Positions 8,722-63,510 of a DNA stretch of 64,000 nucleotides are shown here, one piece after another. This DNA is from Amphiura filiformis (taxonomy: Eukaryota; Echinodermata; Ophiuroidea; Amphilepidida; Amphiuridae). The stretch spans positions 8,997,274 to 9,061,273 of the forward strand of contig NC_092647.1 in NCBI RefSeq assembly GCF_039555335.1, written 5' to 3'. How positions within the stretch are numbered: position 1 is the stretch's first letter; the number at the start of each line of letters is the position of its first letter. The notes under the pieces were generated by a model. It had not been told where the DNA came from, made no database searches, and saw only the letters and a program-made list of their open reading frames with translations. The position numbers and the translations under genes were made by a program.

Positions 8722-10568
8722 CAAAATCTACCTTCACTTTGGCTGTGGGATCATGCTCTGTACCTCATTATGCAGACTGTATGCTAGTGTGATAGGGACA
8801 TGTGCTGTGATCAAATCTACCTTCACTTTGGCTGTGGGATCATGCTCTGTACCTCATTATGCAGACTGTATGCTAGTGTGATAGGGACATGTGCTGTGAT
8901 CTAGTCTTATGCAGACTGTATGCTAGCATGATAGGGACATGTGCTGTACCTCATTATGCAGACTGCATGCTAGCGTGATAGGGACATGTGCTGTAGGCCT
9001 ACCTCATTATGCAGACTGTATGCTAGCATGATAGGGACATGTGCTGTACCTCATTATGCAGACTGTATGCTAGCGTGATAGGGACATGTGATGTACCTCA
9101 TTATGCAGACTGTATGCTAGCATGATAGGGACATGTGCTGTACCTCATTATGCAGACTGTATGCTAGCGTGATAGGGACATGTGCTGTACCTCATGCAGA
9201 CTGCATGCTAGCGTGATAGGGACATGTGCTGTGATCTAGTCTTATGCAGACTGTATGCTAGCATGATAGGGACATGTGCTGTACCTCATTATGCAGACTG
9301 CATGCTAGCATGATAGGGACATGTGCTGTACCTCATTATGCAGACTATGCTAGCGTGATAGGGACATGTGATGTACCTCATGCAGACTGTATGCTAGCAT
9401 GATAGGGACATGTGCTGTACCTCATTATGCAGACTGTATGCTAGCGTGATAGGGACATGTGCTGTACCTCATGCAGACTGCATGCTAGCATGATAGGGAC
9501 ATGTGCTGTACCTCATGCAGACTGCATGCTAGCATGATAGGGACATGTGCTGTACCTCATTATGCAGACTGTATGCTAGCGTGATAGGGACATGTGCTGT
9601 ACCTCATTATGCAGACTGTATGCTAGCGTGATAGGGACATGTGCTGTACCTCACTATGCAGACTGTATGCTAGCATGATAGGGACATGTGCTGTACCTCA
9701 TGCAGATTGTATGCTAGCATGATAGGGACATGTGCTGTGATCTAGTCTTATGCAGACTGTATGCTAGTGTCATAGGGACATGTGCTGTACCTCATTTTGC
9801 AGACTGCATGCTAGCATGATAGGGACATGTGCTGTGATCTAGTCTTATGCAGACTGTATGCTAGTGTGATAGGGACATGTGCTGTGATCTAGTCTTATGC
9901 AGACTGTATGCTAGCATGATAGGGACATGTGCTGTACCTCATTATGCAGATTGTATGCTAGCATGATAGGGACATGTGCTGTACCTCATTATGCAGACTG
10001 TATGCTAGCGTGATAGGGACATGTGCTGTAGGCCTACCTCATTATGCAGACTGTATGCTAGCGTGATAGGGACATGTGCTGTACCTCACTATGCAGACTG
10101 TATGCTAGCATGATAGGGACATGTGCTGTACCTCATTATGCAGATTGTATGCTAGCATGATAGGGACATGTGCTGTGATCTAGTCTTATGCAGACTGTAT
10201 GCTAGTGTCATAGGGACATGTGCTGTACCTCATTTTGCAGACTGCATGCTGGCATGATAGGAACATGTGCTGTGATCTAGTCTTATGCAGACTGTATGCT
10301 AGTGTGATAGGGACATGTGCTGTGATCTAGTCTTATGCAGACTGTATGCTAGCATGATAGGGACATGTGCTGTACCTCATTATGCAGACTGCATGCTAGT
10401 GTGATAGGGACATGTGCTGTGATCTAGTCTCATTATGCAGACTGTATGCTAGCATGATAGGGACATGTACTGTGATCTAGTCTCATTATGCAGACTGTAT
10501 GCTAGTGTGATAGGGACATGTGCTGTGATCTAGTCTCATTATGCAGACTATGCTAGCGTGATAGGGAC

Positions 10569-10959
10569 TGGGGGGGCACATCAAAAATGTTTGGTGGGTA
10601 TGCTCCCCCGGAATTTTGAGGTGGGGGGTCTTTGGGAGCTGACGGCGTACCGGTAAAAGGGGGTCTTTCGGAGCTGCGAACCGGGCTGTGAACAAGTAAA
10701 ATGGGGTCTTTTGGAGCTGCGAAAAGTCAAAATCAAGGGTCTTTCTTGACTTTTTGGTTGAAAATCGCCTGAATAAACAAGAAATATGAGGAATGAGCAA
10801 TTTTGGGGTCTTTTAGAGCTGAAATTATCAAAATCAAGGGTCTTTCGAGCTTTATTTTGGTCAAATATAGGGGTCTTTCGAGCTGCTGAAACCCAAACAG
10901 GTGGGTCTTTCGGGGAGCATACCCGTATGGTCATTTGTGTTGAGTGCCCACCCCCGGGG
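10569..10959. mobile_element. hAT-like MITE inserted in the minisatellite
   Basis: The array unit is interrupted after ATAGGGAC (10561-10568), and the same 8 bp recur at 10960-10967, where the array resumes. The element has G-rich/C-rich inverted ends (GGGGGGGCAC and GTGCCCACCCCC) and internal repeats of 'gggtcttt(c/t)gagctg'. It resembles the element at 41230-42433 in end structure. Confidence 0.8.
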
Positions 10960-11340
10960 ATAGGGACATGTGCTGTACCTCATTATGCAGACTGTATGCT
11001 AGCATGATGGGGACATGTGCTGTGATCTGGTCTTATGCAGACTGTATGCTAGCATGATGGGGACATGTGCTGTGATCTAGTCTTATGCAGACTGTATGCT
11101 AGCGTGATAGGGACATGTGCTGTGATCTAGTCTCATTATGCAGACTATGCTAGCGTGATAGGGACATGTGCTGTACCTCATTATGCAGACTGTATGCTAG
11201 CGTGATAGGGATATGTGCTGTACCTCATGCAGACTGTATGCTAGCATGATAGGGACATGTGCTGTGATCTAGTCTTATGCAGACTGTATGCTAGTGTGAT
11301 AGGGACATGTGCTGTACCTCATTATGCAGACTGTATGCTA

Positions 11341-11940
11341 GCGTGATAGGGACATGTGCTGTGATCTAGTCTTATGCAAACTGTATGCTAGCGTGATAGG
11401 GACATGTGCTGTGATCTAGTCTTATGCAAACTGTATGCTAGCGTGATAGGGACATGTGCTGTGATCTAGTCTTATGCAGACTGTATGCTAGCGTGATGGG
11501 GACATGTGCTGTGATCTAGTCTTATGCAGACTGTATGCTAGCGTGATAGGGACATGTGCTGTGATCTAGTCTTATGCAAACTGTATGCTAGCGTGATCGG
11601 GACATGTGCTGTGATCTAGTCTTATGCAGACTGTATGCTAGCGTGATAGGGACATGTGCTGTGATCTAGTCTTATGCAAACTGTATGCTAGCGTGATAGG
11701 GACATGTGCTGTGATCTAGTCTTATGCAAACTGTATGCTAGCGTGATAGGGACATGTGCTGTGATCTAGTCTTATGCAGACTGTATGCTAGCGTGATGGG
11801 GACATGTGCTGTGATCTAGTCTTATGCAGACTGTATGCTAGCGTGATAGGGACATGTGCTGTGATCTAGTCTTATGCAAACTGTATGCTAGCGTGATAGG
11901 GACATGTGCTGTGTTCTAGTCTTTATGCAGACTATGCTAG
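11341..11940. repeat. Higher-order repeat inside the minisatellite, 300-bp period
   Basis: The 300 bases at 11341-11640 recur at 11641-11940 with only about three substitutions. Six successive 50-bp units carry the same order of variant bases (caaa, caaa, caga/gatggg, caga, caaa, caga). This is recent amplification of a six-unit block. Confidence 0.9.
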
Positions 11941-12576
11941 CGTGATAGGGACATGTGCTGTGATCTAGTCTTATGCAGACTGTATAATATAATAGTGTGA
12001 TAGGGACATGTGCTGTACCTCATTATGCAGACTGTATGCTAGTGTGATAGGGACATGTGCTGTGATCTAGTCTTATGCAGACTATGCTAGCGTGATAGGG
12101 ACATGTGCTGTGTTCTAGTCTTATGCTAACTGTATGCTAGCGTGATAGGGACATGTGCTGTGTTCTAGTCTTATGCTAACTGTATGCTAGCATGATAGGG
12201 ACATGTGCTGTGATCTAATCTTATGCAGACTGTATGCTAGTGTGATAGGGACATGTGCTGTGATCTAGTCTCATTATGCAGACTGTATGCTAGCGTGATA
12301 GGGACATGTGCTGTGATCTAGTCTTATGCAGACTATGCTAGCGTGATAGGGACATGTGCTGTGTTCTAGTCTTATGCTAACTGTATGCTAGCGTGATAGG
12401 GACATGTGCTGTGATCTAGTCTTATGCAGACTGTATGCTAGTGTGATAGGGACATGTGCTGTGATCTAGTCTTATGCAGACTGTATGCTAGTGTTATAGG
12501 GACATGTGCTGTGATCTAGTCTCATTATGCAGACTATGCTAGCGTGATAGGGACATGTGCTGTGATCTAGTCTTAT

Positions 12577-14356: not shown

Positions 14357-17300
14357 CTGAGAACAAAGGAAACATATATGTATTAATATCCTTGGATTGA
14401 TCCACAGGGTTATCAATCTGAGCTATAGTCTGTCTCGTCTCAAGTTGAGAGTAACGCCATGTTGGATTTCACAGTGGCAGATTCAAATCATGCATGCTAA
14501 CCTAATCCCATGGGGTGTATAAGCACGGGTAGAAGAGCGATTTGTCTATACTCTGGCGACATACTCCCATAAATGCATTGATTCAAATCTGCCACTGGAA
14601 AATTGAACATCATGATGACATTACTCTGAGAAGAGACACACCCTAGCTATGATAGACCATTTTGTGATTCACAGCTTACAAACAGCTCACCTCCCTGTGG
14701 GTAGGGTTAATGTGACTTGCCGTGTGTTTTTACGTGCTTCATTGGCTGTTTACTCTGACATGCAATCAGACACTTCAGGTATACCTTTCTGATACACTTG
14801 TAAGCCCAACACTCATAGACTTCTTTGCCACAACAGTACTTGTCTGAAGAACCATGTCCCAGTCTCAAAGCCCTTAGAAAGGCTCACATATGGAAAGGTC
14901 TGTAAGACATGTATAGGGGTGTGTGCTCATGTGTTTACAGACAAACGAGGACATGCACACGTCCATGTTTGCATAGTCCTAAACTTTGTCCATATGTTTG
15001 GAGGCGAACACACGTAATGGTATGTGTGGGGGGTATGCACATTATATATATACCCTCCTCGAGGCAGTAATTTAGATATTGTGTTTTATTGTATCTCTAA
15101 ACGTAATTAATATTAAAAGTAAAAGTACACATTTTTTTTAAAGGATATGATGCAAGGAATCCATCCAGCATAACAGATTCCTGTAATAATCAACAATTTT
15201 TGAGAAAATCACAAAATTAGATTTTATTTTACTACATCGAGGAAGGCATCTGGAACATGCCATGCCTATTAACTTACCCTCTTTCCTCTGAATGTTGTCA
15301 GTGTCATCAGTGGTTCTTTGCTCCTTTCTGCTGTATCTTGATTTATACAAATCATCTGGCATCTGGTGCATAAACCTCCAACCTACAAGGAGTGCAAGGA
15401 GAAAATATAAGTAACTACACAATATGTGTTTAACAAAGTGATGGTGTATTCACATCTATTTGAAATCTGGCATAGGCATTAGGCCATTTGTGTGTATATT
15501 ACACAAAAGCAAACCAAACATCAAATAACAAAACCAAACATGTATTCACACTCAAATTTGTGTAGATAAATGGATTTTGATCATTCATTATGAGACGTTC
15601 CAAAAGTACTCAGCACCAGAAACTATCATGCTCTATCACCCTATAGCCACAAAGTTTCACTTAAATCTGACTTGGTCATTGAGTGGATGAATGGAATGTT
15701 GGCCATGCAATTAACATATAAAACGTCACAAACATTCAGTACCAGAACTTATCAACTCAATCAGTCTGACAACTTTGAAATTTATCTGCTATTAGGTTAA
15801 AGGTGGTAGAGTGGATTAATGATTTCTACTACACATTGACAAAGATGAACACCTGTTCATATCAACTTCATAAAGGCCCTACCATGAATACGTGTTGGCT
15901 AATCTGACAAAGGGACACCCACCATGAATACTTGTTGGCCAATCTGACAAAGGGACACCTACCATGAATACGTGTTGGCTAATCTGACAAAGGGACACCC
16001 ACCATGAATACTTGTTGGCCAATCTGACAAAGGGACACCTACCATGAATACATGTTGGCAAATCTGACAAAGGGACACCTACCTTGAATACTTGTTGGCT
16101 AATCTGACAAAGGGACACCTACCATGAATACTTCTTGGCCAATCTGACAAAGGGACACCTACCATGAATACTTGTTGGCTAATCTGACAAAGGGACACCT
16201 ACCTTGAATACTTGTTGGCCAATCTGACAAAGGGACACCTACCTTGAATACTTGTTGGCCAATCTGACAAAGGGACACCCACCATGAATACTTGTTGGCT
16301 AATCTGACAAAGGGACACCTACCTTGAATACATGTTGGCCAATCTGACAAAGGGACACCTACTCTGAATACTTGTTGGCCAATCTGACAAAGGGACACCC
16401 ACCATGAATATTTGTTGGCCAATCTGACAAAGGGACACCCACCATGAATATTTGTTGGCCAATCTGACAAAGGGACACCTACCTTGAATACTTGTAGGCC
16501 AATCTGACAAAGGGACACCTACCTTGGAATACTTGTTGGCCAATCTGACAAAGGGATATCCACCATGAATACTTGTTGGCCAATATGACAAAGGACCACC
16601 TACCTTGAATACATGTTGGCAAATCTGACAAAGGGACACCTACCTTGAATACGTGTTGGCTAATCTGACAAAGGGACACCTACCTTGAATACTTGTTGGC
16701 AAATCTGACAAAGGGACACCCACCATGAATACTCGTTGGCCAATATAACAAAGGACCACCTACCTTGAATACATGTTGGCCAATCTGACAAAGGGACACC
16801 TACCTTGAATACGTGTTGGCTAATCTGACAAAGGGACACCTACCTTGAATACTTGTTGGCAAATCTGACAAAGGGACACCCACCATGAATACTTGTTGGC
16901 CAATATAACAAAGGACCACCTACCTTGAATACATGTTGGCCAATCTGACAAAGGGACACCTACCTTGAATACTTGTTGGCCAATCTGACAAAGGGACACC
17001 TACCTTGAATACTTGTTGGCCAATCTGACAAAGGACCACCTACCTTGAATACATGTTGGCAAATCTTACAAAGGGACACCTACCATGAATACATGTTGGC
17101 TAATCTGACAAAGGGACACCTACCATGAATACTTATTGGCCAATCTGACAAAGGGACACCTACCATGAATACTTATTGGCCAATCTGACAAAGGGAATAC
17201 ACCAATCTGACAAAGGGACACCTACCATGAATACTTATTGGCCAATCTGACAAAGGGACACCTACCATGAATACATGTTGGCCAATCTGACAAAGGGACA

Positions 17301-20300
17301 CCTTCCTTCAATACATGTTGGCCAATCTGACAAAGGGACACCTACCATGAATACTTGTTGGCCAAACTGACAAAGGGACACCCACCATGAATACTTGTTG
17401 GCCAAACTGACAAAGGGACACCCACCATGAATACTTGTTGGCCAATCTGACAAAGGGACACCTACCATGAATACTTATTGGCCAATCTGACAAAGGGACA
17501 CCTGCCAAGAATACTTGTTGGCCAATCTGACAAAGGGACACCTACCTTGAATACATGTTGACCAATCTGACAGAGGGACACCTACCTTGAATACATGTTG
17601 GCCAATCTGACAAAGGGACACCTACCTTGAATACATGTTTGTTTGTTTGTTTGTTTACCCAGGTGGGTCCGTGAGGAACACATGCTAATCCATGGAAAAC
17701 CATGGACCGTTCCAAGCTCATACAAATGCACAAGCCTGGATAGCCAGTGTAGGCTAATATATGCATGCTGGCCTAGATAGCTTTGATAAACAAAGCAAGA
17801 AATGGAAGAAAATAGCTAGGAAAAAGAGAAAAGAGAGAAGTGGGCCAATCTGACAAAGGGACACCTACTCTGAATACTTGTTGGCCAATCTGCCAAAGGG
17901 ACACCCACCATGAATATTTGTTGGCCAATCTGACAAAGGGCCACCTACCTTGAATACTTGTTGGCCAATTTGACAAAGGGACACCTACCTTGAATACTTG
18001 TTGGCCAATCTGACAAAGGGATATCCAACATGAATACTTGTTGGCCAATCTGCCAAAGGGACACCCACCATGAATATTTGTTGGCCAATCTGACAAAGGG
18101 CCACCTACCTTGAATACTTGTTGGCCAATTTGACAAAGGGCCACCTACCTTGAATACTTGTTGGCTAATCTGACAAAGGGACACATACCTTGAATACTTG
18201 TTGGCTAATCTGACAAAGGGACACCTACCATGAATACATGTTGGCTAATCTGACAAAGGGACACCTACCATGAATATGTGTTGGCCAATCTGACAAAGGG
18301 ACACCTACCATGAATATATGTTGGCTAATCTGACAAAGGGACACCTACCATGAATACGTGTTGGCCAATCTGACAAAGGGACACCTACCATGAATACTTG
18401 TTGGCTAATCTGACAAAGGGACACCTACCATGAATACGTGTTGGCTAATCTGACAAAGGGACACCTACCATGAATACTTGTTGGCCAATCTGACAAAGGG
18501 ACACCCACCATGAATACGTGTTGGCCAATCTAACAAAGGGACACCTACCATGAATACGTGTTGGCCAATCTGACAAAGGGACACCCACCATGAATACATG
18601 TTGGCTAATCCGACAAAGGGACACCTACCATGAATATGTGTTGGCCAATCTGACAAAGGGACACCTACCATGAATACTTGTTGGCCAATCTGACAAAGGG
18701 ACACCCACCATGAATACTTGTTGGCCAATCTGACAAAGGGACACCTACCATGAATACTTGTTGGCTAATCTGACAAAGGGACACCTACCATGAATACTTG
18801 TTGGCCAATCTGACAAAGGGACACCCACCATGAATACTTGTTGGCCAATCTGACAAAGGGACACCTACCATGAATACATATTGGCTAATCTGACAAAGGG
18901 ACACCTACCATGAATATGTGTTGGCCAATCTGACAAAGGGACACCCACCATGAATACTTGTTGGCCAATCTGACAAAAAGACACCCACCATGAATACTTG
19001 TTGGCCAATCTGACAAAGGGACACACCTACCATGAATACTTGTTGGCTAATCTGACAAAGGGACACCTACCATGAATACATGTTGGCTAATCTGACAAAG
19101 GGACACCTACCATGAATATTTGTTGGCCAATCTGACAAAGGGACACCTACCATGAATACTTGTTGGCCAATCTGACAAAGGGACACCCACCATGAATACA
19201 TGTTGGCTAATCTGACAAAGGGACACCTACCATGAATACGTGTTGGCCAATCTGACAAAGGGACACCTACCATAAATACTTGTTGGCCAATCTGACAAAG
19301 GGACACCCACCATGAATACGTGTTGGCCAATCTAACAAAGGGACACCTACCATGAATACGTGTTGGCCAATCTGACAAAGGGACACCCACCATGAATACT
19401 TGTTGGCCAATCTGACAGAGGGACACCTACCATGAATACGTGTTGGCCAATCTAACAAAGGGACACCTACCATGAATACGTGTTGGCCAATCTAACAAAG
19501 GGACACCTACCATGAATACGTGTTGGCCAATCTGACAAAGGGACACCCACCATGAATACTTGTTGGCTAATCTGACAAAGGGACACCTTCCTTCAATACT
19601 TGTTGGCCAATCTGACAAAGGGACACCTACCATGAATACTTGTTGGCCAATCTGACAAAGGGACACCTACCATGAATATGTGTTGGCTAATCTGACAAAG
19701 GGACACCCACCATGAATACTTGTTGGCCAATCTGACAAAGGGACACCTACCATGCATACTTGTTGGCTAATCTGACAAAGGGACACCTACCATGAATACT
19801 TGTTGGCCAATCTGACAAAGGGACACCTACCATGCATACTTGTTGGCTAATCTGACAAAGGGACACCCACCATGAATACTTGTTGGCCAATCTGACAAAG
19901 GGACACCCACCATGAATACTTGTTGGCCAATCTGACAAAGGGACACCCACCATGAATACTTGTTGGCCAATCTGACAAAGGGACACCTACCATGAATACT
20001 TGTTGACCAATTTGCATTTTCTTCCATTTGTCTTCTTGAAAACTGCTCACATTGTCAATCACAAAGTTGCCACGGAAACGTCCCAAAAGGTTCTCTATCT
20101 CAACATATTTTTCTTGACCTGTAGACAATACAATGCTGCGTTTTTCTGACATATGGCTATATTTTTCATGGATGTTTTCCAGAAGGACCTTACAACTGCT
20201 TCGATTTAACAACAGGTATGGCGATTCCTGAGCTAAGGAGAGCTGTGCCTTCTGATCAGAGGCTAACACTGTATAAAGAAAGAAAATAAAGGGTTACTTT

Positions 20301-26300: not shown

Positions 26301-29300
26301 AAATTTCCAATTTTTGGAAATAAGGGCCAAAAACATGCGTTTTTAGGGTGTTTTTCGTATGCTGTGACAATCAAGCCCAAAGACTAATTTCAAGACTAAT
26401 TTCAGTTTATGCAGTCTAATTTTTGGAAAAGACAAGTTCCATTCTGATAACCGATAATTTAATTAAAGAAACATAAAAAAGTGAAAATTATAGCAAAATT
26501 TCAGCATATACTCAAGATTTTGAATGCTTAGACTTGTTCCAAGTCTTTGATTTTTAGTGACTTGATTGTCAGAAAATATGCAGAAAATGCATGTTTTTGG
26601 CTCTTTTTTCTAGAAATTAGTAAAATAGTGAATTTTTTCTTTTATTGCCAGTTAGGACTAACTAAAGGATTAGGATTGAGCTGTTTCATTTTGCAGAACT
26701 TGATAATATTTTTTTAATCCCAAAAAATTAGTGCTGTATTTTTTTGGAATAGGGAGTAGGGCAGTCATCAAAATTTGATCCACTTATAAATATTACTAGT
26801 AATGCATCAAATTTGGCATCATGATATGTAAACCATGACAAATATCTCCCAAGCCAACCTCTCTTGATAAGGCTTGCTATATACATGCATTCTGAAACAA
26901 ATTTCCATTAAAGTGGTATTTCTTGATTTGAGCATCCTCTTGTTATGATATGGTTCAATAAATATCCACAAAAAACTTATTTCCAAAATGTCCAAAATAA
27001 TTGCATAGCCCAGTGTTGTTTGGGCTGTCAACAATATTTGATATTGTCTACTTGAAAGTCAAGTGACAGAATTTGCAAGAAAGGTGATGTACAAAAACAT
27101 GGTGTACTCCCAATTCAAAAAAAATAATGCAGCACTATTTTTTTTTTTTTTTTTGATTAATTAAAATTATCCTGTTTTGCCAATTTGACAGAAAATGGGT
27201 CAAAAACACACATTTTTGTTACAAAATTCAAAGACTCGGCACACATAAACATACAAAATTTTGAGTATAGGCAATGATTTTGCTCATAAATTCAATATAA
27301 TTGTTATTTTAATAATTGATTATAAAGACATTAGAAAATGTGTTGTCCAAAAATTAGAATGCATAACCTGAAAATAGTCTTAGTGCACTGCAAGTCTTTG
27401 AGCTTGATTGTTACAGCATACAAAAAACACCTTAAAAACACATGTTTTGGGCCAGTATTTCTAAAATGTACCAAATGTTAAAATTTGACTTTCATTGCCA
27501 TTAAGAACTAATTTAAAGTTTAGGATTTAGCAATGCTTCATTTGACAAAACAGGATAATATATTATTAATCCAAAAAATAAATGGCTGTTGATCACAAAG
27601 TGCCCCTTTAATGCAAAGCTATTGAGCCTGTAAATTGTATGTAACCAAATGCCAAAGAAGACTGTTTGTAAAAATAATTTTATAATTCATGTGCTAGTAA
27701 TAATTTTGTTTTGTTTGCAGAGTAAGACATATGTTTGAAACCTCATAAAACAATAAGTTTGAGTAGAGTTCCTACCTCCATAGCACCGCATCAAGAGATT
27801 TGATTGGATACAGATATATATTAGTAAGCACCATCTTGTTCCCAGCATTCCTTGCAGCCTCAACACCTCTAGCAATTCCTCTATCCCCATGGCAACCAAC
27901 ATCAATCTTTGATGCAAATGCAGAGCCTTCTAAATCAGAGCTGACAACTTTGCCCAATACATTCATCTCTGATTGATCTTTTCCTTGCATCTCAGTTTTG
28001 TGAGGAGGATGGGAATTTTCTAGCAAAATGTTTGCCCTGTCATTGTCAGCAGCTGTTTCATGTACCATAGTTTCACCTTTATCAATGGCTTCATCTTTGT
28101 TAGCATTCTCCATCTCCTTGTTTTTTACATTTACATCATTTGTGATAGGAGATGCTGATAAGCTTGACCGTTTAACAAAACAGTCCTGGATGAACTGAAG
28201 GAAATGGTCAGCGTCTTGTTTAGTGGACATGTAACCAAATGAGATGCTAATAGAGCCAGTGGGTTGTCCATTTATGATGTCCATATCATCACCACAAACA
28301 TGCCCAGCCTGCAATAGAAGAGAAGAAATGCATGCATCAACAATAAGTCATTACATTTTTGACAGCCACAAAAGTGATAGCCTGCAACACCCACATGTTT
28401 CTTTTATTCCATTAACCTTAGCAATAAGTGGTGCAATACTATTAGTTTGTTGGCATCTACAGCTCCTGAACAAATGAGACCCTCATATCGAAACAGACCA
28501 CTTCGCGGCTAGCTTCATTGGCAGATAACAATGAAAGAAGATGGAAAAATATAAAGAAAATAAAAAGAATTTTGAGCTTGTTTTGCCTCATAAAACATTT
28601 TTACTGTATCTGATTTCAACAAGTAAGGTGTCATTTTCAAGCTAAAAAGCAGCAGTTTTTCCTAGTGTTTAAATCTCCATTTTCATTTCTGCCGCGAGGT
28701 GGTCTGTTTCGATGTGATGGGTCACAAATGTTCCTTCCATCGTGCTTTGCCAAAAGCACTGGGTATAAAAGTTCCCGGCCTGATATCATAGTCATATGAC
28801 CATTCAGTTGCACAACAGACCTCAATACAGTTCAAATGACCTTAACAGTAGGCCTACCTACCACTTTATTGCTCCATGTTCTATCTGCTCTGAAATATTA
28901 TATAGACTGTAATATTCTTGTTGATTTCTTCATCATTTAGTTGCTTTGTGATGGTTTTATGGCAAATGTTCAAATAAATGAGAGCAATTTTATTTTAACA
29001 TGGGAACTACATACAAACCATATGATGACTGTAAAGGTAGTGTATCATGGAAAAATAAGATACACAAGAATTATAATGAAAAATGTGGGCATTCAAATCT
29101 GACTTTTTATATTGTGTTTTAAGAAAAATGCCAGTGATTGAGATTGATGGTATTGGCAGTTTGCAATTCATGTTGAAATCACTGTGGTATTTCATTGTTT
29201 ACAAATCACAGCCGCTTATTACATATCCCATGTGGTCTTACAAAGAAAATTCTCTTTCACAGCTGGCTTGATTTTGCTCAAATCACACAAAACCAGAGTG

Positions 29301-32300
29301 AGTGTAATCAAACTGTCTGCAGAAGAGACTGACAGGAAAAGGTTTTGACTTCTTCGCTTCAGTTTAATATGACGACAAATAATGTAATGAGAAAACAAGG
29401 TCTGCACGCTATGTTAAGTTATGAAGTATGCTGCCTTGTGCAGCTCTTCAGGTTCCATGAGGGATCTATGCATATAGGCTGTATGGGTAGGTACATGTTT
29501 CTGCTGTGGCTTCTCCTGTATGGTTCTTCATCATTTCTACCCAAAGCTTATGAACAATAAACAATGCCTAATATTTTGAAGATTAACTTTTCCAAATCAG
29601 TAAGAGCTAAGAAAGTGTGTTTAATCATTGTATGTTTACATTATATACACCTGTGTGTGTTGAATCATTGCATACTTGCATGTGTGTATAAGTTACCTGT
29701 GTTGAATCATTGCATGCTTGCATGTGTGTATAAGTTACCTGTGTTGAATCATTGCATGCTTGCATGTGTGTATGATTTACCTGTGTTGAATCATTGCATG
29801 CTTGCATGTGTGTATGATTTACCTGTGTTGAATCATTGCATGCTTGCATGTGTGTATGATTTACCTGTGTTGAATCATTGCACGATTGCATGTGTGTATG
29901 ATTTACCTGTGTTGAATCATTGCACGATTGCATGTGTGTATAAGTTACCTGTGTTGAATCATTGCATGCTTGCATGTGTGTATGATTTACCTGTGTTGAA
30001 TCATTGCATGCTTGCATGTGTGTATGATTTACCTGTGTTGAATCATTGCATGCTTGCATGTGTGTATGATTTACCTGTGTTGAATCATTGCATGCTTGCA
30101 TGTGTGTATAAGTTACCTGTGTTGAATCATTGCATGCTTACATGTGTGTATGATTTACCTGTGTTGAATCATTGCATGCTTGCATGTGTGTATGATTTAC
30201 CTGTGTGTGTTGAATCATTGCATGCTTACATGTGTGTATGATTTACATGTGTTGAATCATTGCATGCTTGCATGTGTGTATGATTTACCTGTGTGTGTTG
30301 AATCATTGCATGCTTGTATGTGTGTATGATTTACCTGTGTTGAATCATTGCATGCTTGCATGTGTGTATGATTTACCTGTGTTGAATCATTGCATGCTTA
30401 CATGTGTGTATGGTTTACCTGTGTTGAATCATTGCATGCTTGCATGTGTGTATAAGTTACCTGTGTTGAATCATTGCATGCTTGCATGTGTGTATGATTT
30501 ACCTGTGTTGAATCATTGCATGCTTGCATGTGTGTATGATTTACATGTGTTGAATCATTGCATGCTTGCATGTGTGTATGATTTACATGTGTTGAATCAT
30601 TGCATGCTTGCATGTGTGTATGATTTACATGTGTTGAATCATTGCATGCTTGCATGTGTGTATGATTTACCTGTGTGTGTTGAATCATTGCATGCTTGCA
30701 TGTGTGTATGATTTACCTGTGTTGAATCATTGCATGCTTGCATGTGTGTATGATTTACCTGTGTGTGTTGAATCATTGCATGCTTGCATGTGTGTATGAT
30801 TTACCTGTGTTGAATCATTGCATGCTTGCATGTGTGTATGATTTACCTGTGTTGAATCATTGCATGCTTGCATGTGTGTATGATTTACCTGTGTTGAATC
30901 ATTGCATGCGTGCATGTGTGTATGATTTACCTGTGTTGAATCATTGCATGCTTGCATGTGTGTATGATTTACCTGTGTTGAATCATTGCATGCTTGCATG
31001 TGTGTATGATTTACCTGATAGTTGTCCTTAACCTGTTGTGATGACAAATCCAGGTACATCTGACACGCCCCTGTATTACAGAAGCAACCTGTACGTAGAT
31101 GAATGTCATGTAACGCTGCCAGCGAATCCACCTGTCACAAGGAGAAATGAAGTCATCAGCAATATGTACCACTGAATAATGCAGCATTTTTTTACAATGA
31201 TATGAAGCAGATTTGACCAAGTCTTTTTGGCATTCTTAGGACAGTAAAATTAATTGAATATTCAAAAGTTAAAAATTCACATAGTTCTATGGCTAATTTA
31301 TTAAGTTATGTGGGTGTGTGAGAGACATAGACAATGGTTAAGCTATATTATATAGGCCTATATCATGTGGTTAACATACTTAGATTTGACCAATTCATTT
31401 TTGGCATTCTTAGGACAGCTAAATTAATTATTAATGAATCTTCAAAAATTCATGTAAGCCTATGCCCAAATTACTAAGTTAAAAATCTTGCAAGCAAGTT
31501 CAAGGTATGATACTATAATATAATACTTGTGAGGGCACAATTTACTTGGTCCTAATCACAAGCACATGGTGTAGGATATTTTAGTTTGATAATTGTCTAA
31601 AAAGTGGTGCTAGGTGCCAATCTATTTTCTAGTTTCCATGGTATTTCTAAAATTTCTTTTGACCTTCAACATGGTTAAGTTAACTATATCTTTTCTTTGA
31701 TGTGCACAACACAAGACCCATCTGTGCTTTAAATAGAAGATTGCAAATATGAGACAAGAATTCTTTGTATTGATACGTGTCTTTGAATAGATTGTAGTAT
31801 GTGGGTACTTCGGGGAGACAGTGGCATAGTGGTCTAAGACTTCATTTGTTATGTCTACAAACTAACCTCAGCATAGCCCACAAACTCTCCATTTGGTCTG
31901 AGAAGATTAAAATTGATGATTGGTCCTTGCATGTTGTTATCATCAAACCTGTTATGACAGTACAGTCTAGCAACTGACATTCCATTACCATGACGATATG
32001 CTGCCATGTTGTTATGAACATACTTAGCTAGGGTGAAGGTGTGTTGCTGAATTGAACTCATACTTCCTGCAGAAGATTATACAGTAATATAAGCCTTCTC
32101 ATATTTTACATTTTCTAATCACATTCAAATATTTTGCCCTGCTTGATCACAATTGTATTAGAGTGTAGTGATTTCTGCAACTGTATGGTGGTTTCATGTC
32201 TACTCAATCAATATTTGCCTAGGCTTTATCTCCACAAAAGATGGTGGCACACTTTCTCAAGCTTGTCAATGGGACTAATTAATGAACCAAAGTAGGGAGG

Positions 32301-35300
32301 TAAAAATAGAAGCTCATCAGAAACTGCAGGTATTGGCAATACCCAGTATAGCAAACTAATTACAAACTGATAGAAAGCAAACCATCAAATTATTCAGTCC
32401 ATCAACATACTCAACTAATTACTTCTCATTGAAATTTAAAAAAAACAAGTGTTTATTCATCAAAACACACATCAATTTTCCATTCACTATATCACTCTCT
32501 TACTGACTCACTGAATTCACTCTCAATCAGTGTACAGATGACATACCAGCTAATCTTTGCAATACATCCAAGCCATGCCTCACTGCTACTATGTCTAGAA
32601 ATGGCACTGTTCCATCTTCAAACCTGAATCAATGAGAAATTGAAAAACATGAAAATTCAAAGATCAAAATAATGAAGAAAACATGTTTGATTCATTTTCA
32701 CTAGCGGAATGCTCGCGCCCACACGGACCTCCGCTAGTTGAGTAAAAGAAAGCAATTACAAAAACGGGAAGAATCGCTGAACATATATATTACATGTTGA
32801 CAGAGACTTTTATAGGCCTATATAGGGCCTAAATGGCTTTCTTTCCTCCCGTACCATTACAATATTTATAGTCTTTGTAGGCCTAATCCCATTATCCCAT
32901 TCTGTATACCATCAACCATAACCCCGTACGCAAGGTTGGCTATGCCCACCCGTGTGTGCAAGTCAAGTGGCGTGCGGTGTGTATGCCGACGCGCTAATGA
33001 TGGCACAATTTCTGCTATATATTAGCCCGAAAAACTCACTTTCTTACTGATTTTGAGGCCAACTCTTGACCATTTTCAACCAAATAAAGTGAAATGCATT
33101 CCCCATATATTCCTCAATCTCACGTATGAATATCATTGGCGACATTTGGATCCAAACTGATGGAGCCTTTCGATCTTCATACATACAAACATACAACTTT
33201 TGGCTATTTATAGTAAGATGGTGCAGAGGATCAATTATTTGATATATTGTCCAATATATTTGTGAACCATCCTCTACCATTACCTTGTTAACATTGTGTA
33301 AAAACATTTCATTTTCTTTCTTATGACACTCCAAAATATGAGTATTATTAGTTTATCCATGCATCCATGATCCTTCCTTACCATTCTGCTAGAGATTTCT
33401 TTGGAGCATGAAATTGTTCTCCACTTAAGTACGCCAACACGGTTCCTCCACCAAAATAGACCTTCCTCAGAACCTGTTCAGCATCCTTCCTGACAATCAA
33501 AGCACCTAACCCAGTCGGGAATCCAAACATCTTGTAGAATGATACAGTGATAAAGTCAGCCATGCAATTACTTAAATCCAGCTGTGATGTGGAGGCCAAT
33601 GCTGCAGCATCAAGTACAACATACCAGTTACTATTGGAACAGTTCAGGGTATATGAGAGTTGACCTTGCTTGACCTTTGTACACCAACTCAATGGATACT
33701 TGCGCCCTGAGAAGTTTGACTGCCCAGGATAAGCAAACAGACAATTACTGGTTCCAGTCTGTGAGTTCTGAAGATGATATGATGATGGAGCACCATCTTG
33801 TAAAATTTGATCTATCTTTTCTGTTGAGATCGCAGCTACTTGAGCTCCTTTTTCCTTGGCATTTTCTCGCATCCCAATAACAGATGTGTGGTTGTCCTCT
33901 AGGTAGCAAAATAATCCAGATGAAACATTCCTACATTGGTGGTCAGGATTGCCAGGAGACGCTGATGTATCTTGGGTTGTTTCCATTGCATTATGGGTAG
34001 AGTCTGATGCATTATGGGTAGAGTCTGATGCATTATGGGTAGAGTCTGATGCATTATGGGTAGAGCCTGATACATTACATCCTGACCAGTCAAATGTATT
34101 TGCCAGAAGCTTAAGAGCACCAGTACAACCAGAAGTAAATATCACGCTGTGAAGATCTGGTGTTGTGTTGAAATGTTGCAGAATTCTGAAAAGTTAAAAA
34201 AAAATAGTGGAAACTCATGTTAAACTTTAATGTTGTTGTTGATATATATTCTTTGAAATACATGAATTATATTATTTTGTGACATTTCAATTAATTTGTC
34301 ATATATGTGATATGAAATGTCCACATATTTCTTGTAGTAATTTGTTAGCATACACAGAACAGTAGAACTACACAGGGGCCTAAGCCTCCTCACTTTGGTG
34401 GGGTGTTTGTAAAAGCCACCTGAGACATATGTTTCTCACATTCAATGGTAGTACAGATACCAAGTACATGAATCAGATGTTACTCTACACAAATAAAAGC
34501 ATAACCGCTATGGGGAATCTTCGGTATCATCCTCATTCTTTTCTGCTGCATCCTTCTTCATCTTTCTTTCTTTCTTTCTTTTGTCAATCACATAATGAGC
34601 CATAGACATAGTAGCACTGGTCATTCATAAGCTCATGAATATGCGATGTGTGTGATCCAATCATGTTTTATTATTTGTAAAAATGCAAAATGCAAATTGA
34701 GGCCATTAACAATTAACAAAATATGTAATTGTTCCAGCGTAAATATTAGTAACCTCCGTACGTGCCACATTGTATGTCGAACTGCACACACACGCACTGG
34801 CCACCCTTTGGGCCAGGATATTCCTCGGTTAAGGTTCCAAAGGCAAAATGTTTAGATTTTACACAATGCCCTCCATATAACCAATGCGCAATTACTAACC
34901 TCTATTAAATAGTACCATTTGGGTGATGTGAAATGTTTGATGCAGTGTCCACCTCTTGAGATGTAGGCCTATACAAGTACTATTTAGGGAAAGTTTTATC
35001 ATAGGTTAAGCTTTGCAGGAACATATAGGAGTATGAGTGCATATATAGGGGTGTGTGCACCAAGCCTCTTGTGTGCACCATTGGTAATTGTCATATTAAA
35101 GCCAGGATTATGCACTCATTATGCAACTGCGTTGATATTATCAACCCCATGCACCTACCTATATCTGACTTGCTCTACAGTGTCCATACTAAGCCGACTG
35201 CTGCTACTGCCACTGTGTGGATTGCCGTAAACATTGTGCATTAAGTCTTCATGGTAATTTGTTAGCTGACTTGCAGCATACAGTGTAGTGCCTGTATGAT

Positions 35301-36949: not shown

Positions 36950-38655
36950 CTTAGGGCCGGATTTGCCTTTTGGGGGGCCCTGGGCCCGACCAAATTTGGA
37001 GGGCCCCAAACTCACTGTAAGGAAGGCATATGCACTCAAGTGACTTAGTTTAATTTGATTTACGTATAAGATTGCGGCAGAAGCATAACAATTTAGACAA
37101 TGACATTTGCGGTTGAAGTACGGAAAAAAATGAAGGTGTATTTTGCTACTATATAGGGCCAGTGTGCGCTTCGCACGGGCAAAATTATGCAATTTTACCC
37201 TATTTTGGCCCAAAACATGGTGTTTTAGGTCTAAAAAGGAAGGTGCACAGGGCAATTGGGAGGGAGGCACATTTTTGGGGCCCTAGGTCTGGGCCCATTT
37301 GGGCTCTGTACCCCAGGTCGGTACCCAATAATATTTGACATTATGAGGCTCATATACCCATGTAAAGGTAGGCCTACACTGCCCAAGTGCTGAACCATGA
37401 ACTGTTATTGCTTTAAATTACTTTTTAAAAACATTTTAGGCCACAGGCCCAGTCACAGCTTACTAGGACTGCAACTGCAGCAGCAGATCTAAGCCTTGTC
37501 ATCAGCGCACCTAAGACAGAATATATGACTGCAAACTGTAACATCGCCCAACCAGCACTTGAAGTCTATGGTAGTACCATCAACCATGTCACAGACTTCA
37601 AGTATTTGGGTTCCAAGATGGGCTCTAGTGTTGGAGACCTAAAAGAAGAAAAGCACTAGCCTGGGCAGCTTTCTGGAAACTGGAACGCCTTTGGAGAAGC
37701 CCGTCCCTGCCAATCGAAACAAAAATCAAGCTGTTTCAGACAACGTGTGTTACTGTCTTTCTGTACGGGTGCGAGTCATGGGTAATTACCAAGGACATGG
37801 AAAACAAGATCAATGTATTTGCAACATCTTGCTACAGAGTCATGTTAAACATCAAGCGTGTGGATGGGATTCCAAATGAAACCATCTACAACATGACCAA
37901 CACCATGGTTGCCAGAGTCAAGATTCATCAACTCAAATTTCTCGGCCATATACTGCGTCTTGATGGCGAGCCTGTGAAAGAATATGCGCTTTATATTCCA
38001 CCACATGGGAAGAGGACTGTACTTACAGTATGTCCAGCACCTCCTGGGAGATACTGAAGGGATGCTGCAGCCAAACAAAATTGTTTCGCTTGCCCAAGAT
38101 CGCATTAGTTGGAGAAAGCTTGTAGCCGACTGATGATGATGATGATGATGGTACCTATAATATTTGACCTTTGGAACTCATGAATAGTTATTGAGAAATG
38201 ACAGGCCCTTTGTATTGACATTTGGGCCCCCGGGAACTCTTGATCTTGGGTATCCGGGCCAAAATTGGCAAAATTCATATCTAAGGGGACAGACCTTCAG
38301 GCTTAAGTGCATCACGGTCCACATACGGGGTCCTTTGTAGTTTTAGAGCCAGCTTTGATGATACGCTTATATCTAACATTGGGGCCCTGGACCCATACTA
38401 TAGATGACCTATTTGTATTTTGAGAATGTGTAATGCTCCAACCTGATTCTATAGAAATCATATTCCCAAATATTAAATTTGGGCAGCTACGACCCTTGAC
38501 TTTTGATCTCTTACTATTCTACCCACCGGACCTTTGAACCTTGCAGAAAACAATTAAAGCAACAACAAAAAAGAAGGGGGGGGCCTTTAGCCAAAATAAC
38601 AGGGGGGCCTTGTCAGCACTTGCTGACTTGCTGACAGCTTAAATCCGCCACTGAA
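36950..38655. mobile_element. Composite region: element with 'ggccggattt' ends split by a LINE
   Basis: 'gggccggatttgccttttgg' near 36955 and 'taaatccgccactg' near 38640 look like opposing ends of one G/C-rich repeat ('ggggggccc...'). A 5'-truncated LINE lies between them. Boundaries are approximate. Confidence 0.35.
37441..38135 (+). pseudogene. 5'-truncated LINE (non-LTR retrotransposon) reverse-transcriptase C-terminus
   Basis: Frame-broken translation gives LSLVISAPKTEYMT, VTDFKYLGSKMGS, then LPIETKIKLFQTTCVTV, FLYGCESW, MENKINVFATSCYRVMLNIK, and LKFLGHILRLDGEPVKEYAL. This is the usual C-terminal 'FKYLGS...LYGSE.W...F...CLR.IL.I...LR.LGH..R' tail of LINE reverse transcriptases. It ends in a (GAT)n run at 38132-38150, as LINE tails often do. 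At least two frameshifts make it non-functional. Confidence 0.8.
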
Positions 38656-41229: not shown

Positions 41230-42433
41230 GGGGGGGTACTCAGTACAAATGACCATACGGGGACGTGCCGCAAACATGGGTAGCATTTTCAGCCTTCTGG
41301 TATATCAATGACCCCTTTTTCAAAGCCTATTTTGGTATATGAATGGGTCATTTTTTCAAAATTTTCTCAATTTTTTCGGAAAACAGCCCAATTTTTCCTT
41401 AATCTAGGGTAGCTGCAGGTAATATGGGACAGCAGGTAATATGGGACACCTGTTTTCATTTTAACAAAAAGTAGCTTAGAGAAGGTACACACTTTAAGTT
41501 GATTTGTTAAGTGTTTAGAGACATCAATTGTGCTTCTAGAAATGCAGTTTTGGAGTCTGTGTATCAAACTCTTGGAAATCAATGCCAAAAAGAGTGAAAT
41601 TGCCCAAAAATTTACGTCGTTTTTTTGGCCTGATATAAAATCAATGACGCCACATTTTATGATTGTGTATCCAAAATACTCTGGTACTGAGGGTGCATTT
41701 GTCACTTTTTATGATCTTTAGGTGATGGGTTAAGCTTATCAGCAGGTAAAATTCCACTGAAAAGTGGCACTTTCCTTTATAAATGATTATTTTCTCTGAT
41801 TTTCAACTGAATGGGTGCAGGTAATATGGGACACATAGGAAATTGTGTGCATTGTCAATGCGAAAAGCAAAACTATTTAGAAAATTGAATTTTCTTGTTG
41901 AAATTTGCATTTAACATTCAAAATCATGTAACAAAAATGTTTTTAGAACAAAAGAGTGATTTTCTGAACATTTTGATTTTCACCATAGAGATAACACAGT
42001 GTCCCATATTACCTGCACATGCAGGTAATATGGGACACTTGACGATGACGTCATTTTGACGTCATAGCGTCCAAACAAACATAAAAACAAGATAACATTG
42101 CCTGTTTTATTAATCTTAAAGGACAGGTTGTTCATCATAACAATCTCTTTTGGGCATATCTTCTATAGTGTTTATGCACATAAGCTAAACGTCCTTAATG
42201 GTCCCATATTACCTGCAGGTAGGCCCTACCCTAGCCAAAATTTTCAAAATTTTCCCAAAAATTTTGGGAAAATTTGTAAAAACTAAGACAATTTTGGGTA
42301 AATTCGGCCGAAAATTTTGACTTTTGGTATATCAATGGGTCCAAATTTCTTGAAAATTTGGTATATTTATGGGTCTACTTCCAAAATCTCAGCGGCACGT
42401 CCCTACCAAAACCAAACTTGAGTACCCCCCGGG
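41230..42433. mobile_element. hAT-like element, 8-bp target duplication, with inner inverted repeat
   Basis: The ends GGGGGGTACTCA and TGAGTACCCCCCGGG are flanked by AGTGACCC on both sides (41222-41229 and 42434-42441). The outer parts repeat 'tttggtatatcaatggg'. Within it, 41404-42234 is bounded by inverted 'ctagggtag...ctgcaggtaatatgggac' copies. Six GCAGGTAATATGGGACA sites occur in both orientations (41414, 41432, 41818, 42000, 42021, 42200). No transposase is seen. Confidence 0.75.

Positions 42434-49079: not shown

Positions 49080-63510
<14,431 letters not shown>

Follow-up and report, generated by a model that had tools for sequence, protein, structure and literature searches.

In the MOCOS gene of the brittle star Amphiura filiformis, an echinoderm, the donor of exon 11 is followed by a long array of near-identical copies of its own exon-intron junction. 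We give a probability of roughly 80% to the reading that this array (array 1) is a neutral minisatellite of the “mirage” type, seeded by the junction, and that splicing of the transcript uses the first donor, with no more than a little stutter to the next units. Array 1 is part of the window, i.e. the whole 64,000-nt stretch of DNA analyzed here. The same gene contains a second donor-anchored array (array 2), absent from the first-pass annotation of this DNA.

Host gene and exon structure

The best database relative of the MOCOS pieces in the window is a deposited A. filiformis protein (P0001), described as molybdenum cofactor sulfurase-like, which is 97% identical to the query in one local alignment covering 52% of this inexact query. 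The deposited protein, which contains the Pfam domains Aminotran_5, MOSC_N and MOSC, carries a LOW QUALITY flag and could be a computed model. Its exons lie on the minus strand between 41011 and 14261, where exons 1–6 and 8–13, joined at GT-AG junctions, yield the deposited sequence. At the end of exon 7 (about 27776–27800) the frame of the window departs from that of the LOW QUALITY protein. Exon 3 (33987–34077) contains a coding 21-bp repeat in about four copies (STHNASD).

The features of the two arrays and their flanking exons are listed in Table 1, in which a slash marks the exon-intron boundary. The exon 11 end and the exon 12 acceptor, placed by the first-pass annotation at 19991 and 15382, form an identical junction in the deposited A. 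filiformis protein, and the first donors of array 1 and array 2 are those of the deposited model. All array 1 units are located within one intron of this model, and no new intron was found between the copies.

Table 1. Positions, in window coordinates, of the MOCOS arrays and adjacent features
Feature	Position	Strand	Description
Exon 6	31015..31131	-	donor CAG/GTAAAT after 31015
Array 2	29656..31014	-	42-bp units (a few of 46); begins at exon 6 donor; 50% of intron 6
Exon 7	27776..28308	-	acceptor of intron 6; 3′ end by eye; frame unlike that of the deposited protein
Exon 11	19991..20268	-	donor after 19991 (ATG/GTAGGT); frame ...KMQIGQQVFM; junction search against the deposited protein
Exonic 24 nt of array 1 unit (CAAATTGGTCAACAAGTATTCATG)	19991..20014	-	22/24 to array consensus; both mismatches synonymous
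Array 1	15878..19990	-	40-bp units; 97 full copies, 93 with GT; 89% of intron 11
G of decoy donor 3 (+120 nt)	19870	-	only GT decoy of 93 with a full open frame; adds 40 aa
Non-repeat insert in array 1	17640..17840	-	about 200 nt; edges approximate; splits array
Exon 12	15278..15382	-	acceptor of intron 11; junction of the deposited protein

Anatomy of array 1

Tandem Repeats Finder delimited array 1 at 15878–20011 with a period of 40. Wrap-around alignment started from position 20014 gave 104 rows, comprising one exon-junction copy, five rows of the insert, one partial unit and 97 full units; all counts given below (n = 97) leave out the first three categories. This alignment bore out the initial description of the array as about 98 junction copies (the exon copy plus the 97 further full units), each joining the last 24 nt of exon 11 to 16 nt of the intron, with two mismatches in the exonic part. 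The units share a mean identity of 94.9% with their consensus and comprise 52 distinct sequences; the last full unit, at the array end, is degenerate.

The claim that nearly every unit carries a splice-site-like motif also held, as GT occupies positions +1/+2 in 93 of the 97 units (the sites at the donor position of the units are referred to below as decoys). The predominant motifs are CATG/GTAGGTG (39 units), CATG/GTGGGTG (25) and CAAG/GTAGGTG (23), with other forms in the remaining 10. A 20-mer spanning the exon 11 boundary recurs with a 20/20 match within the next 800 nt, compared to 10–15/20 for the remaining 11 MOCOS donors, and the best match of a 24-mer rotation of the unit in the remaining window was 19/24 (plus strand) or 18/24 (minus strand).

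One end of the insert is rich in pyrimidines and carries CCTAG, and the opposite end bears (AAAC)n. The insert looks SINE-like by eye, and its matches in the remainder of the window are short and weak.

Assembling long arrays is difficult, and towards the end of exon 7 the deposited model and the window differ in frame; both points would be compatible with an assembly artefact in the length or position of the array. Such an artefact is nevertheless extremely unlikely, as the diversity of the units (52 distinct sequences) and the single-copy insert speak against one unit having simply been collapsed or expanded.

A 21-nt frame-keeping microexon (IGQQVFM), entered via the CAG/ATT present in each array 1 unit, was considered and rejected on the basis of weak pyrimidine content upstream: 0.56 before the unit AG versus 0.62–0.94 for the 12 acceptors of the gene (the exon 8 acceptor being listed one base off).

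The exon 11 junction as the source of the repeat

The exonic part of the array 1 unit encodes QIGQQVFM, in which I and G are nearly invariant among 12 aligned MOCOS proteins (a selection from 120 listed). At both positions where the exon copy departs from the array 1 unit, the change is synonymous. When the 97 units were compared with their own consensus in the frame of the exon, 134 nonsynonymous and only 6 synonymous differences were counted (26 distinct changes, 4 of them synonymous). Judged from these differences, the exon copy behaves as coding sequence and the array 1 units do not. The two variants of the exon copy are rare in the units (A at −22 in 3/97, T at −16 in 1/97), a rarity that would fit a boundary copy escaping homogenization, as in mirages, but that coding constraint would equally produce.

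These data bear on the order of events. Since the exonic part of the unit contains conserved MOCOS residues, the exon does not seem to have been overwritten by a foreign repeat, and the conserved coding together with the exclusively synonymous mismatches points to the junction as the source and array 1 as the copy. The opposite order, in which a satellite family from elsewhere invaded the intron and overwrote the end of the exon, would account for the large size of the array, but it is very unlikely given that the exon end codes for conserved residues and differs from the unit only synonymously. The database searches also speak against it. The array 1 translation gave no candidate in the protein search and the array 2 translation none at E ≤ 0.001, although the short ORFs limit the sensitivity of such searches, and the exact array 1 unit pattern was matched 0 times in viral contigs. 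An Rfam search returned 0 matches.

Predicted strength of the donors along array 1

Donor strength was calculated as the predicted pairing (in kcal/mol) with the 5′ end of U1. The true exon 11 donor scored −10.7 kcal/mol, the fourth strongest value among the 12 donors of the gene. Compared with it, 23 of the 97 array 1 decoys are predicted to pair more strongly, 40 equally and 34 more weakly. The earlier suggestion that the decoys are of true-donor quality is thus supported for 63 of the 97 units, which equal or exceed the true donor in predicted U1 pairing; outside both arrays, only 14 of the 3361 GTs on the minus strand reach the strength of that donor.

The first-pass annotation had singled out CAAG/GTAGGT as a better consensus. 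This form does outscore the true donor in predicted U1 pairing, but it is absent from the proximal units and entirely distal: decoys stronger than the true donor occur in 0 of the 44 units above position 18200 and in 23 of the 53 below it. The three decoys nearest to exon 11 are all of the GTGGGT form (−10.3, slightly weaker than the true donor), and this triplet is the only run of three in the array, with a chance of 0.02 under random order. The combination of weak near and strong distal decoys could reflect selection against near decoys; however, this is only a hint, since neighboring units share variants and homogenization would cluster variants equally well.

The mean divergence in the units, calculated by hand, is about 0.076 at donor positions −3 to +6 and 0.044 in the rest of the unit. 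The donor positions therefore vary no less than the remainder, as expected without selection on the decoys.

Consequences for the reading frame

Each of the 93 GT decoys was spliced in silico to exons 12 and 13. A premature stop resulted for 92 of them, and only the third (+120 nt) retained an open frame. The expectation that every third decoy would keep frame is correct as spacing arithmetic near the exon, but the stop codons leave decoy 3 as the sole case among the 93.

Because 92 of the 93 GT decoys bring a premature stop, buffering of donor loss as an adaptation is poorly supported. More broadly, array 1 might be retained as a back-up or U1 reservoir that rescues donor loss or guards the intron against premature polyadenylation. 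The frequency of true-donor strength in the units, set against that among minus-strand GTs outside the arrays, would suit such a role, but decoy use would nearly always break the frame and the donor positions are not conserved, which makes this role exceedingly improbable.

A second donor-anchored array in intron 6

Array 2 was delimited by Tandem Repeats Finder at 29656–31017, with a period of 42 and 32 copies. It starts exactly at the exon 6 donor, repeats that donor and contains 31 in-register GTAA decoys, of which 27 are CAG/GTAA and 4 CAT/GTAA. If the array were randomly placed in intron 6, the chance of its edge falling within 3 nt of the donor would be 0.003. The other ten MOCOS donors are not followed by such a repeat, their best matches in the next 800 nt being 10–14/20. 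The array 2 unit and exon 6 share only CAG, and since just these 3 exonic nt are common to the unit, the sequence argues less strongly for an origin from the junction than in the case of array 1.

In the frame test, 32 decoys of array 2 (including the terminal CAG/GTGTAT) were joined to exon 7 and read to position 27800. Decoys 1–5 are in frame and open, each adding a further 14 residues, whereas the other 27 run into a stop.

These results permit a functional reading, in which the nearest decoys form a ladder of donors that tunes output, array 1 leading to decay and array 2 to 14-aa steps. It would draw on the predicted strength of the 63 array 1 decoys, on the five open, in-frame decoys of array 2 and on the human gene IFI6, where, in the available text of PMC4526556, two downstream repeat units are used as donors. 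This reading is very improbable, however: only 1 of the 93 array 1 decoys has an open frame, the donor positions of the array 1 units show no special conservation, the inserts derived from array 2 would land within the cysteine-desulfurase domain, and no isoform was seen, the deposited protein being the sole member of its 90% cluster. The more elaborate proposal that MOCOS output is tuned by U1 loading and nearest-donor choice (with array 1 decay and array 2 14-aa steps), with array length varying between individuals or cells, is quite improbable.

Other features of the window

A third array (8724–12576; 50/47-bp units, about 76 copies) is located downstream of the MOCOS stop, and no exon was recognized at its edges. 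On the plus strand, a 17-bp donor-like sequence (GCAGGTAATATGGGACA) occurs in two exact copies at 41415–41448. The plus-strand ORF at 37629–38057 is reverse-transcriptase element-like by eye and has a weak DUF6451 match below the cutoff. The minus-strand ORF at 51294–51629 is WD-repeat or dynein-intermediate-chain-like by eye, with no Pfam match at E 0.01.

Comparison with known systems

The minisatellite of human IFI6 consists of a 12-nt unit in about 26 copies. According to the accessible part of PMC4526556, splicing uses two of its downstream repeat units as donors, so that three mRNAs are made. Both MOCOS arrays resemble it in beginning at an exon end and in having donor-like units. Downstream donor use is known in IFI6, whereas the MOCOS decoys are predicted from sequence; furthermore, array 1 does not keep the frame and array 2 does so for five units.

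Minisatellites spanning exon-intron boundaries have been named “mirages” in amphioxus, where the available text of PMC3087553 describes them in Adh3 and in the globin genes BflGb6 and BflGb9. The units are of 10–72 bp in Adh3 and 150–160 bp in the globins, two BflGb6 haplotypes having 6 and 3 of them; the Adh3 mirage shows somatic length instability, and mirage genes are reported to be spliced normally (PMC3087553). The splice-site tandem repeats of lancelet PGBD5 are likened to mirages, with Adh and troponin C cited, and normal splicing is again reported (available part of PMC3902484).

As in the mirages so described, the MOCOS repeats span an exon-intron boundary and many units carry splice signals (GT in 93/97 units of array 1; the 31 in-register GTAA of array 2). 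The array 1 unit contains both exonic and intronic sequence of its boundary (24 and 16 nt, respectively), while array 2 shows this feature weakly (CAG only). The MOCOS case differs in that one echinoderm gene carries two arrays, with 97 units of 40 nt in array 1 and 32 copies of 42 nt in array 2. Splicing and instability have been demonstrated in mirages, whereas the MOCOS arrays are known here from the sequence of a single assembly.

In the potato RdRp gene, the available text of PMC4974935 describes intron gain by tandem duplication over a splice boundary. There, as in MOCOS, tandem duplication over an exon-intron boundary copies splice signals; unlike that case as described, an existing MOCOS intron was lengthened and no new intron arose.

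The MOCOS arrays belong to the mirage/IFI6 kind, and the architecture has already been named in amphioxus. The literature searched, including the available text of PMC11310086, did not describe exon-boundary arrays in any echinoderm, which is not proof of their absence. With respect to that literature, the new elements are the host group, the copy number and the presence of two arrays per gene with different frame consequences.

Proposed origin and splicing of the arrays

The neutral, junction-seeded origin preferred here would begin with a short tandem duplication across the boundary between exon 11 and intron 11, which would place a copy of the donor downstream of the real one. Unequal exchange or slippage may then have amplified this copy to about 97. 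Since a copy becomes intron when the first donor is used, a duplication across the donor would be nearly neutral, and continued use of that donor would keep the copies intronic. A similar event at the donor of exon 6 may have produced array 2, whose unit has CAG alone in common with the exon.

Under exon definition, the first donor would be chosen as the one bordering a coding exon that has an acceptor of its own. Decoys far from this exon would be disfavored: their use would create exons as long as about 4.4 kb, and almost every decoy would add a premature stop, probably leading to decay of the transcripts. Exon definition could not easily separate the first donor from the next few, so correct splicing would be expected, with the next one to three donors being used rarely. 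The example of human IFI6 makes stutter to the first few decoys of array 1 plausible.

The MOCOS arrays extend the mirage/IFI6 architecture to an echinoderm at a large scale, with a true donor followed by 97 near-identical copies in 40-nt steps and, in the same gene, a second array with frame-keeping 42-nt steps. They constitute a natural experiment on how the spliceosome settles on the first donor among many equal ones. Counting junctions at +40, +80 and +120 would directly measure this positional discrimination, with the two arrays per transcript acting as an internal replicate.
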